Origin: Marinosulfonomonas sp. | GTDB lineage: Bacteria; Pseudomonadota; Alphaproteobacteria; Rhodobacterales; Rhodobacteraceae | Assembly (NCBI GenBank): GCA_026989405.1 | Contig: JALSJL010000015.1 | Span: 1-34,492 of the forward strand | Direction of reading: 5' to 3' | DNA length: 34,492 bases | Shown: piece by piece, positions 528 through 21,727 of the stretch | Numbering within the stretch: position 1 is the first letter of the stretch | Layout of the letters: each line of letters starts with the position of its first letter | The notes under the pieces: model-generated | Database searches by the model: none | What the model saw: the letters and a program-made list of their open reading frames with translations, nothing else | Told to the model about the DNA's origin: nothing | Program-made: the position numbers and the translations under genes

Positions 528-1214
528 ATGACCAAAAGTTTGTTTTCCACAGTTGGAGCGGTGGTTGCCGTTGGCGCGTTTGCCAGCGTCGCGATGGTGT
601 CGGCTTCGTCAGCGGCGACGGTGACGGTTGACTATCAGAACGCCTCGAACCCGTTCGGGTCGCCCAACTTGTCGCGCTATGTGCGCATCAGTTCACCGCA
701 ATATAACGGCGGCACACGGGCGGGCCCGTTCCGTCTGACCGGCGACGGCGGCATGGGCGATTTCGTGGCCTTCTGTGTCGATCTGGGCAAGTATCTGGCC
801 AATGGCCAGTCTTACACAACCGCGAGCAATTCAAATTTCGGTGGCGCGGTTGATACCAATATCGACAAGCTGTTCACCTCGGCCTACTCGGGGGTGTCGA
901 CCCAGGTGGAAGGCGCAGCTTTCCAGGTGGCCCTTTGGGAAATCATCACCGACACCGGGTCCGGTTTCGATCTGACCAGCGGGAACTTCAGCGTTCAGTT
1001 GGCGGGATACAGTGCCGCCGTGATCAATCAGGCCAGCAGTTATCTGTCGGGGCTCGCTTCGGCGGCAACCGGCGGCTACAACCTGACCTTCCTGAATTCC
1101 GGCACAAGCCAGAACCTGGTGACGGTCTCGCCGGTTCCGCTTCCCGCTGCTGCGGGGATGCTGGGCTTTGGTGTGCTTGCGCTTTTCGGTTTGCGTCGGC
1201 GCAAGAACGCCTGA
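528..1214 (+). CDS. Secreted VPLPA-CTERM surface protein with probable thioester domain
   Basis: The protein has 228 residues. An N-terminal signal peptide spans about residues 1-30 (hydrophobic stretch, cleavage near SSAA). The C-terminus is a full sorting signal: VPLPA at 203-207, a transmembrane helix, then the basic cluster LRRRKNA. In Rhodobacterales such tails are processed by a VPLPA-specific exosortase (XrtD type), so the mature protein is expected at the cell surface or in the extracellular matrix. The middle carries FCVDL (Cys83, the only Cys in the protein) and AFQVALWEI (Gln133, Trp137). This is the Cys...QxAxW pattern of thioester domains that form an internal Cys-Gln bond. The start fits GAAGGG about 8 nt upstream of the ATG. 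The gene stands alone, ends at a strong terminator and may be RpoN-driven. The sorting signal is certain; the thioester assignment is inference from the motif. Confidence 0.88.
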   Translation: MTKSLFSTVGAVVAVGAFASVAMVSASSAATVTVDYQNASNPFGSPNLSRYVRISSPQYNGGTRAGPFRLTGDGGMGDFVAFCVDLGKYLANGQSYTTASNSNFGGAVDTNIDKLFTSAYSGVSTQVEGAAFQVALWEIITDTGSGFDLTSGNFSVQLAGYSAAVINQASSYLSGLASAATGGYNLTFLNSGTSQNLVTVSPVPLPAAAGMLGFGVLALFGLRRRKNA

Positions 1215-1242
1215 ACAAACCAGGGTTTTGACAATCGGAACG

Positions 1243-1268
1243 GGGCGCCCGGGGGGGGCGCCCTTTTT
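1243..1268 (+). terminator. Rho-independent terminator of the VPLPA-CTERM gene
   Basis: The stem GGGCGC/GCGCCC (1243-1248 with 1258-1263) is followed at once by TTTTT. It lies 29 nt after the stop codon and separates this gene from the convergent RNase gene. Confidence 0.85.
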
Positions 1269-3387: not shown

Positions 3388-4704
3388 TCAAGCAAGTGTG
3401 ATTTGACGCGACATGCGCGAGTTGCGCCGGAGAGCCACTGTTTCCAGGTCGTGCACCGGTCGGCGCAGCGCCAGAATGCGTTGCGCTTCATCGGCGCGGC
3501 CAAGTTTCAGCAGGGCGGACAAGAGCGCAAACTCCAGCATGTCGCGCTGTGCCCGGCTGCCGCCGAGGCGCGCGTGATCGGCCATCGCAGACGTGAAATG
3601 CTGCGCAGCATTTTCCCAATGCTGCGCAGCAATTTCGCGAAAACCCCTTGCGAGGGCGCCGACAAGGTCAGCCGCCGGACCGGCCGGCGCCTTGATGATC
3701 TTTTCCAGCGCCTCGGTGCGCCCGGCCATGGCATGCGCCAGCGCGGCGTGGACATCGGCAAACCCCAGCCCCGGCTCGGCAAAGAAGCGTTGCGCGTAGT
3801 CGCTGACCTGCGTCCATCGCTCGGGGGCGACCTTTTCGCCCGCCAGTTCGGCGCGATACAGGATCGAGGCCATGTCGGTCAGCACGTTCAGGGCAAGCCC
3901 CTGCGCCACACCTGGCGCAATGTCAGCGTCAATCCGGCGCCACATTCCGGCTGTGTCGCCATCGCCCAAAGCCCAAAGCGCCGCGTGCCATGACAGGTGG
4001 CCGTGCAGCATTCCGGCGCGGTCGTAGCCCGGAAGCCAGTCTTCCAGATAGGCCGTGCCGGCGGCACTGTCGCCTGCTTCATACCAGACATGGGCCCGGA
4101 TATGGGCAGCGTTGGCGTTGCGCGGGTTCAGTGCCAGCGCGCGTTCTACCGTCGCATCGGCCGGGTCGATCTGGCCGGTTTCGCATTGGGCGAATGCGTG
4201 CTGGCCAAGAAACCACCAGTCATCGCCGTAGTGGGGCAGAAGCGTCGTTGTCAACGCAAGCTGTTCGGCTTCGCGCCCCGGTAGGCCGGAAAACCCGATC
4301 AGCCCGAACACCCCGGTGCAGGCCTGCGCCAGCAGCGCGTCACGCGGGTGCTGCGAAAGATGGGCGCGGATCGCCTGCAGGGCGGCGGCGGGCTTGCTGG
4401 CGATGAGCAGGGACAGGGCTTCGACATGCGCGGCTTCGCGCGGGCCAAGCCCGTCCGAAAGCCGTTGCGCGCGCGCCAGCGCCTTGCGGGCGCCCCCGGC
4501 GTCGCCCGTCATGTGCCGCGCGCGCGCCAACCCGGCATGGCCGAGCGCGAAACCGGGATCGGCCGCGACGCAGTTCTCGAAGGCCTCGACCGGGCGGGCC
4601 TCGGCGGCAAGCAACAGGTCGAGCGCTTGCACATAGTGGTCTCTCGCGGTTGTGGACGATGTCGTCAGGGCGTTGCCATAACGGTCGCAAAGCGCTGATT
4701 TCAT
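3388..4704 (-). CDS. TPR protein, TTC38/StaR-like
   Basis: 438 residues made almost entirely of helical hairpins with TPR-like spacing (for example [21 protein letters not shown] and [20 protein letters not shown]). This is the layout of the TTC38/StaR-like group. There is no signal peptide or membrane segment, so a cytoplasmic scaffolding role is likely, but no partner can be named. The start codon overlaps the recR stop in an ATGA arrangement, so translation is probably coupled to recR at the end of the dnaX-ybaB-recR operon. The linkage does not by itself prove a repair function. The 162 bases beyond the stop hold the palindrome GCAGCCCGGGCTGC, which may help terminate the operon. Confidence 0.85.
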
Positions 4705-5297
4705 AATGCTTTTCTGGCCTTCAGCGCGGCGCCGATGGTGCCGTCGTCAAGGTAGTCAAGCTCGCCTCCGATTGGCACGCCCTGGGCGAGCGAGGTGACG
4801 CTCACGCGGCCCTCAAGCTCATCGGCGATGTAGTGGGCCGTTGTCGCCCCGTCGATCGTGGCATTCAGCGCCAGGATCACCTCGGTGATGTTTTCAGCCG
4901 CGATGCGCTCGCGCAGCCGCGGGATCGACAACTCTTCCGGGCCGATGCCGTCCAGCGCGCTGAGCGTGCCGCCCAGAACATGGTAGCGGCCCCCGAACAC
5001 GCCGGCACGCTCCATCGCCCAAAGGTCGGCCACGTCTTCCACGACGCAAAGTTCGCCGGTCGCGCGTTTTTCGCTGGCGCAGATGTCGCAGGTGTCCGAG
5101 GTGCAGACATTGCCGCAGGTCAGGCATTCGCGCGCGGTGGCCGCGACGCTTTGCAACGTGTCGGCAAGCGGTGTCATCAGAAGCGCGCGCTTCTTGATCA
5201 TGTGCAGCACCGCGCGGCGTGCCGAGCGCGGCCCGAGGCCGGGCAGCTTGGCCATGATGTCGATCAGGGCCTCGATGTCGCGGGTTGCCTCGCCCAA
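4701..5297 (-). CDS. recR: Recombination mediator protein RecR
   Basis: 198 residues, the usual RecR length. Visible in order: a helix-hairpin-helix (LPGLGPRSA, 18-26), a Cys4 zinc motif ([16 protein letters not shown], 58-73) and a Toprim domain starting at [13 protein letters not shown]. RecR acts with RecO/RecF to load RecA on gapped single-stranded DNA. It lies 3 nt downstream of ybaB and overlaps the next TPR gene by 4 nt, the conserved bacterial dnaX-ybaB-recR arrangement. Confidence 0.97.
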
Positions 5298-5300
5298 GGC

Positions 5301-5645
5301 TCAGACCGGCAGGTTCATGTCGGCCGGCAGCCCCATCGCCTCGGTCAGCTTGCGCATTTCTTCCTGCGAGCGATCCGAGGCCTTCATCTGCGCATCCTTG
5401 ATCGCGGCAAGGATCAGGTCTTCGACCACTTCCTTTTCGTCTGCATTGAAGATCGACGGGTCGATATCGAGCGCCGTCAACTCCCCTTTGGCGGTGGCGG
5501 TGGCCTTGACCAGACCGGCGCCGCTTTCGCCGGTGACGGTCATCGAGTGCAACTGTTCCTGCAGATCGCTCATCCGGGTCTGCATTTCCTGCGCTGCTTT
5601 CATCATCTTGGCCATGTCGCCAAGTCCGCCGAGGCCTTTGAGCAT
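5301..5645 (-). CDS. YbaB/EbfC family nucleoid-associated protein
   Basis: 114 residues from the ATG at 5645 (MLKGLGGLGDMAKMMK), chosen because GAAGGAGA lies just upstream; the track ORF adds seven residues with no ribosome site. YbaB proteins are small dimeric DNA-binding proteins that coat the nucleoid. The N-terminal coiled helix (MKAAQEMQTRMSDLQEQL) and the central VTGESGAGLVKATATAKGEL sheet region are typical. It sits between dnaX and recR, as in most bacteria. Confidence 0.95.
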   Translation of the reverse strand: MLKGLGGLGDMAKMMKAAQEMQTRMSDLQEQLHSMTVTGESGAGLVKATATAKGELTALDIDPSIFNADEKEVVEDLILAAIKDAQMKASDRSQEEMRKLTEAMGLPADMNLPV

Positions 5646-20629: not shown

Positions 20630-21727
20630 ATGGGCGCCTATATCGTTCGCAGGCTGCTGCTGATCATCCCCACGCTTCTCGGGATCATGATCATCAACTT
20701 CACCCTGACCCAGTTCGTTCCCGGCGGGCCGGTCGAGCAGATCATCGCCCAGATGCAGGGCGAAGGCGACGTGTTCGAAACCATTGCCGGCGGGGCGACG
20801 GAAACCAGGGGCAACGTGGCGCTCGGTGACAACGCCCTGTCGACGAAATACATCGGCGCTCGCGGCTTGCCGGAAGAATTCATCGCCGAGCTGGAAAAGC
20901 AGTTCGGCTTCGACAAGCCGCCGCTCGAGCGCTTTTTGAACATGATGTGGAACTACATCCGCTTCGATTTCGGCGAAAGCTACTTTCGCTCGGAAAAGGT
21001 GCTTTCGCTGGTCTGGGACAAGCTGCCGGTCTCGATCACGCTGGGGCTGTGGTCCACGCTCATCGCCTATCTGGTGTCGATCCCGCTTGGCATCCGAAAG
21101 GCGGTAAAGGACGGCTCGCGCTTTGACACCTGGACCAGTGCGCTGATCATCGTGGGCTATGCCATTCCGGGGTTCCTGTTTGCGATCCTGCTGCTCGTTC
21201 TGTTTGCCGGCGGCAGCTACTGGCAGATATTCCCGCTGCGCGGCCTGACATCAAGCAACTGGGAAGAATTGTCGTTGCTCGGCAAGGTCGGCGACTATTT
21301 CTGGCACATTACCCTGCCGGTGCTCGCCAGTTCGATATCGGGTTTCGCCACGCTGACCCTGCTCACCAAGAACTCGTTTCTCGACGAGATCAAGAAGCAA
21401 TACGTGATCACGGCGCGCGCCAAGGGCCTGTCCGAGCGTCGCGTGCTTTACGGTCACGTCTTTCGCAACGCCATGCTGATCGTGATTGCGGGATTTCCGG
21501 CCCTTTTCATCGGCATCTTCTTCGGCGGCTCGGTAATCATCGAAACCCTGTTCTCGCTTGACGGGCTGGGCCGGCTCGGGTTTGAGGCAGCGCTGGCGCG
21601 CGACTATCCGATCATCTTCGGCACGTTGTTCTTCTTCGGCCTGATCGGCCTGTTGATCGGTATCCTCAGCGACCTGATGTATGTTTTCGTCGATCCGCGC
21701 ATCGACTTTGACGTCCGAGAAACCTGA
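20630..21727 (+). CDS. yejB: Peptide ABC transporter permease YejB
   Basis: 365 residues with about six membrane helices. The N-terminus [18 protein letters not shown] is typical of DppB/YejB permeases, and an EAA-like loop ([19 protein letters not shown]) contacts the ATPase. The long periplasmic insert between helices 1 and 2 (about 30-130) matches the YejB branch. It starts 25 nt after yejA and shares one base with yejE (TGATG). Confidence 0.95.

Follow-up and report, generated by a model that had tools for sequence, protein, structure and literature searches.

A predicted thioester-domain protein with a VPLPA-type sorting tail encoded in a Gram-negative genome, Marinosulfonomonas sp.

Introduction

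Thioester domains (TEDs) were described as occurring 'exclusively in Gram-positive bacteria' at their first survey by Walden et al. (PMC4450167). The window analysed here, by which we mean the whole 34,492-nucleotide stretch of Marinosulfonomonas sp. DNA, contains an open reading frame (positions 528–1214, forward strand) translating into a protein of 228 amino acids, for which an internal Cys-Gln thioester and export as an exosortase substrate had been proposed from the sequence. The locus raises the question if a reactive thioester can plausibly be assigned to a Gram-negative protein with a sorting tail of the PEP-CTERM type, and which Gln would take part in the bond. The context is a protein class in which the biochemical role of most members is obscure.

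Results

Gene and domain organisation

Window position 1 coincides with the start of the contig, and the genes next to the open reading frame encode a ribonuclease T2, on the opposite strand, and a TrcR cell-cycle regulator. Comparison with two orthologues (approximately 64% nucleotide identity) revealed most differences to be concentrated at third codon positions and dN/dS to be approximately 0.22–0.36. Because of these two features, 528–1214 is, judged by its pattern of divergence, a real gene under purifying selection. Downstream, a strong terminator-like hairpin of nine pairs, eight of them G-C, is followed by a T run (1242–1264, forward strand; consensus match), which suggests that transcription ends there.

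The gene product was read as a single-domain TED protein with a VPLPA-type C-terminal sorting tail. The putative Sec signal peptide spans approximately residues 1–30 (528–617, forward strand), with a basic start, a hydrophobic stretch and the motif ASSAA; it was modelled with low confidence and lies outside the folded core. It is followed, on the same strand, by the predicted thioester domain (residues 31–201; 618–1130), assigned from the AlphaFold2 model, PDB fold matches and the Pfam model PF08341. Beyond the TED, no further convincing Pfam domain was found in the protein, and no second relative with a matching core was found in the window's own genome.

Fold prediction

An AlphaFold2 model of the window protein, built from 44 relatives, reached a pLDDT of 89.6 overall and approximately 96 in the core, with a pTM of 0.82. 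Its topology comprises six strands, helices 106–122, 126–141 and 162–178, and then strands 184–190 and 197–202. A Foldseek search against the PDB revealed the best ten matches all to be Gram-positive TEDs (Cpa, E = 5e-5; CpTIE, E = 6e-4; SaTIE, E = 0.011), the next, unrelated match having an E value of 1.2. TM-scores of the model against known TEDs were moderate (0.38–0.54). In a separate model of a planctomycete relative, CpTIE and Cpa, only TEDs, were placed at the top of the PDB ranking, followed by a sharp drop.

These rankings bear on the reading that the protein is one of the ordinary PEP-CTERM matrix proteins, with a fold unrelated to TEDs, and that its motif and fold matches are coincidental. 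Such a reading could draw on the diversity of PEP-CTERM proteins and their little homology to known proteins (PMC1569441), and on the NCBIfam matches of the window protein being limited to sorting-tail families; given two independent models from different phyla with the same TED-only top ranks, its probability is next to negligible.

At the level of sequence profiles, PF08341 matched the window protein with E = 0.0018 and 19.1 bits, but below the gathering cut-off of 22, which is a database threshold and not a structural criterion; the TED assignment is based on fold and motifs. Among the relatives, PF08341 scores were mostly below the cut-off, one planctomycete relative scoring 22.0, and routine annotation would therefore miss them. 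No TQXA/TED model in NCBIfam matched the window protein even at E = 10. A PDB sequence search with the single protein returned an antibody match only, which was judged spurious.

Assignment of the predicted thioester residues

As originally stated, the protein contains one Cys only, Cys83 in FCVDL, and a Gln at position 133 in AFQVALWEI. Across an alignment of 75 relatives, conservation was highest at four positions, Trp137 (100%), Gln133 (100%), Cys83 (97%, 73 of 75) and Gln195 (96%), with a mean column identity in the alignments of only approximately 25–28%; among the rows that deviate, L043 is truncated where its sequence stops, and in L105 a Gln occupies the neighbouring position. The anticipated conservation of Cys83 and Gln133 thus holds across several phyla, and the motif conservation, as calculated from the alignment, is far beyond chance. 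The four positions are equivalent to those singled out in the TED literature (PMC4450167, PMC6194298). The predicted thioester Cys (codon 774–776) lies in FCVD, conforming with the motif [YFL]C-hydrophobic-hydrophilic; Gln133 to Trp137 (924–938) form the motif QVALW on helix alpha2, equivalent to TQxxPhiW, with the Thr replaced by Phe in the window protein (FQVALW); and Gln195 (codon 1110–1112) lies in SQNLV. All three features are on the forward strand.

A lone Cys might instead serve in an intermolecular disulfide, since exported proteins can dimerise through a single Cys, or in a metal or cofactor contact, the similarity to TEDs then reflecting a shared fold only. Co-conservation of Gln195, Gln133 and Trp137 in TED register would be left unexplained by this reading, as would a fold search in which all top matches were thioester domains, and we regard it as most improbable. 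Exactly one Cys was counted in 34 of 45 relatives, as expected for a Cys that is not used for disulfides.

The original prediction had paired Cys83 with Gln133 within the same TED fold. Gln133 is invariant in the 75 relatives and even more conserved than Gln195, so that conservation alone does not separate the two, and in TED folds already known the corresponding helix Gln is a near neighbour of the Cys, with whose backbone it forms a hydrogen bond (PMC4450167). In the solved TEDs, however, this Gln of the TQxxPhiW motif on the central helix is neither the bond partner nor essential for bond formation, and the bond-forming Gln of Gram-positive TEDs belongs to a weakly defined motif, PhiQzetaPhiPhi, of the terminal beta-strand (PMC4450167, PMC6194298). 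A profile of 56 relatives searched against the PDB ranked SfbI-TED first, although weakly (E = 0.43), and the alignment set Cys83 on Cys109 and Gln195, not Gln133, on the bond-forming Gln261, with FC on YC, FQVALW on TQNAIW and sQdLvt on YQNLLS. The aligned SfbI residues are 152 apart, matching the published Cys109-Gln261 pair. In the model of the window protein, Gln133 and Trp137 lie on helix 126–141 and Gln195 precedes the last strand.

Natural variation adds to this picture. Relative L009 (G220:C29, approximately 70009–70626) has Ala at the positions of both Cys83 and Gln195, with Gln133 and Trp137 kept, a joint loss that rests on one sequence. Because of the alignment with SfbI Gln261, the place before the last strand and this joint loss, the predicted bond partner of Cys83 should be Gln195, and a Cys83-Gln133 bond is very unlikely. 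The proposed thioester is hence retained with respect to the domain and to Cys83 and revised with respect to its Gln; the distance between Cys83 and Gln133, originally put forward as a means to refute the bond, is misleading because Gln133 is the helix Gln and not the partner.

L009 may be a naturally inactive or non-covalent form of the domain; a search of its genus for more Cys-less relatives returned only its own genome. In L151, an open reading frame (approximately 1333–2118) from the planctomycete search, Asp replaces the thioester Cys and the second Gln is kept, and the Cys can therefore be lost alone. Both sequences, together with the unchanged structure of a Cys-to-Ala variant of CpTIE (PMC4450167), indicate that the fold can persist in the absence of the bond, and would agree with a TED-derived structural or non-covalent binding domain whose thioester is lost by hydrolysis or fails to form in the periplasm. 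Set against the low average identity of the family, the retention of Cys83 and Gln195 at 96–97% points to selection on two reactive residues and to their use, which makes loss of a working thioester in the window protein unlikely; a Cys83-Gln195 thioester is the preferred reading.

Sorting tail and exosortase

The tail of the protein (1134–1211, forward strand) contains the C-terminal signature, hydrophobic helix and basic end of exosortase substrates, namely PVPLPAAAG, helix 208–227 and RRRK. The VPLPA-CTERM model TIGR03370 matched it with E = 1.4e-4 and 21.8 bits, below the cut-off of 25.35, and matched 34 of 44 relatives at E ≤ 0.01. At least one further VPLPA-like tail was observed in the window's genome (G000:C135:9365–9514).

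No exosortase was found in that genome, a draft of 498 contigs and 93% completeness; the other genome of its genus (G060) has one. Among Rhodobacteraceae, 26 of 34 TED-positive genomes had a PF09721 exosortase, versus 103 of 351 others, defined as genomes with no convincing TED match in the protein search (odds ratio 7.8, p approximately 1e-7, for two separately drawn genome samples taken as one set and with kinship ignored in the statistics). PF09721 matches were also absent from seven of the other 33 TED-positive genomes, and assembly gaps or an unrecognised sorting enzyme could account for these seven and for the window's genome. The status as an exosortase substrate, part of the original prediction, is accordingly supported across the family by co-occurrence, and would extend to sorting in the window's strain.

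Apart from local synteny among close relatives, no conserved gene neighbourhood of the TED genes was found. In G327, the TED gene is approximately 2.2–2.3 kb from an exosortase gene, among Wzz-like chain-length and polysaccharide-export genes, and in G369 the two genes are approximately 0.7 kb apart with another PEP-CTERM gene nearby. The G369 locus (L161 3932–5545; G369:C37) comprises this further PEP-CTERM gene (4907–5545) and a secreted-looking open reading frame with no Pfam match (3932–4645); a phosphodiesterase gene lies beside it and an AAA ATPase gene further along.

Distribution of relatives

When 397 Rhodobacteraceae genomes were searched at the protein level, approximately 33 convincing relatives were found besides the window protein. 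Pattern searching of species genomes extended the family to other Alphaproteobacteria, Methylophilaceae, Thiorhodococcus and Dechloromonas, and to Fimbriimonadales/Armatimonadetes, Gemmataceae, Chitinophagaceae and Opitutaceae. A full-length profile (A1) performed poorly in searches, the sorting tail alone drawing many matches; a core-only profile (A2) was used, with which further relatives were found, including tandem pairs in Planctomycetes. Relatives with a VPLPA or PEP-CTERM tail are distributed over alpha-, beta- and gammaproteobacteria, Planctomycetes and Armatimonadetes, and others occur in Verrucomicrobia and Bacteroidetes. The tail is VPLPA-like in Rhodobacteraceae and of classical PEP-CTERM type in betaproteobacteria and Armatimonadetes.

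Several relatives differ in arrangement. The tandem TED/PEP-CTERM gene pairs of Planctomycetes (L147–L150) were observed in G1311, G1388, G1218 and G1250, three of which have a third, more diverged TED copy elsewhere. TED-like domains were seen in three longer proteins, none of them with an obvious PEP-CTERM end: the products of two adjacent Gemmataceae genes (L145/L146, G1214:C136), whose tails are rich in Gly, Pro and Thr, and one from Chitinophagaceae that exceeds 1100 amino acids (L141, G1215:C139). A TED-like segment (LAFCTEIN ... IQILIWEIVHD) was also noted in L104 (G1172:C177, approximately 20836–21300), within an open reading frame of 803 amino acids with many RTX-like GGDGDD repeats. 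The repeats suggest a carrier secreted by the type I route in place of an exosortase tail; the last Gln motif was not placed.

Discussion

Computed fold, conservation, residue correspondence and exosortase co-occurrence point to a stalkless TED protein; that it combines a Cys83-Gln195 thioester with exosortase sorting and covalent cross-linking or anchoring is, taken as a whole, a reading we hold to be probable.

With the class I TEDs of Gram-positive bacteria, Cpa (4c0z, 2xi9), CpTIE (5a0g) and SfbI (5a0l), the window protein shares the predicted fold of a beta-barrel and a three-helix bundle and, with order and register preserved, the [YFL]C motif, the QxxPhiW helix and the terminal PhiQ motif. 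The window protein and its relatives differ from them in their Gram-negative hosts and in sequence, with identities of 10–20%. The multi-domain isopeptide/ester stalk and the LPXTG signal by which TIE proteins are recognised are absent, as is a sortase. Gln195 is approximately 8 residues upstream of the sorting signature and the domain ends a few residues before it, the VPLPA/PEP-CTERM tail following directly after the last strand; there is therefore no stalk, unlike in the Gram-positive TIE adhesins. The reactive group would act near the cell surface or, after release, within the matrix. Core TED topology is also common to the class II TEDs SaTIE (6fx6), BaTIE and pLS20 TIE, in which, however, a 75-residue beta-sandwich is inserted between helix 3 and the penultimate strand, where the window protein has a linker of approximately 5 residues. 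As the pLS20 TIE illustrates, the partner of a TED can be another bacterium and need not be a host (PMC8092201).

An exosortase-type tail is shared with the floc-forming protein PepA (NF033554), a matrix or surface protein. In the members scanned in detail, NF033554 matched nothing beyond the C-terminal part, chiefly the sorting tail; a relationship with PepA or with other named PEP-CTERM families was rejected, the matches lying mostly in the C-terminal sorting region.

In the proposed mechanism, the domain would fold after Sec export, and Cys83 would attack the side-chain amide of Gln195 unaided, with release of ammonia, giving a buried reactive thioester beside the Gln133/Trp137 helix. The VPLPA tail would pass the protein to an exosortase-type sorting enzyme tied to exopolysaccharide export. 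Once the protein is on the surface or within the matrix, an amine of the target, be it a protein lysine, an amino sugar or a polyamine, would attack the thioester, resulting in a permanent amide link via the former Gln195. In this way the protein would covalently cross-link or anchor the cell surface or the biofilm matrix. Bond formation, sorting in the window's strain, the target and the biological role are steps that we infer, thioester formation by homology with SfbI and Cpa, and covalent attachment to amines in the matrix or on neighbouring surfaces would be the likely outcome. The role of a covalent matrix cross-linker is preferred because PEP-CTERM proteins have been linked to exopolysaccharide production and biofilms (PMC1569441) and because PepA binds exopolysaccharide to cells (PMC9850573).

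A search limited to freely available full-text papers found none naming both a thioester domain and PEP-CTERM, and among the papers naming both 'exosortase' and 'thioester', including PMC12617251, none appeared to link the two. The combination of a TED with an exosortase-type tail, originally expected to be unusual, appears to be undescribed, priority not being certain.

The window protein would join the same reactive domain that streptococci and clostridia use for covalent attachment to their targets to a sorting tag with which Gram-negative bacteria direct proteins of the biofilm matrix. At 17 kDa, such a stalkless TED could also serve as a compact protein-ligation tool. With the domain and its preserved key residues found on exosortase-type substrates from several Gram-negative phyla, a concrete chemistry can be proposed for some PEP-CTERM proteins. 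Whether exosortase/PEP-CTERM systems of Gram-negative bacteria export thioester proteins that lack a stalk, activate themselves and form covalent cross-links in the biofilm matrix is, as a general statement, evenly poised in our judgement; if so, covalent 'harpoon' chemistry would be what part of the PEP-CTERM proteome generally does, across phyla and without dependence on animal hosts.
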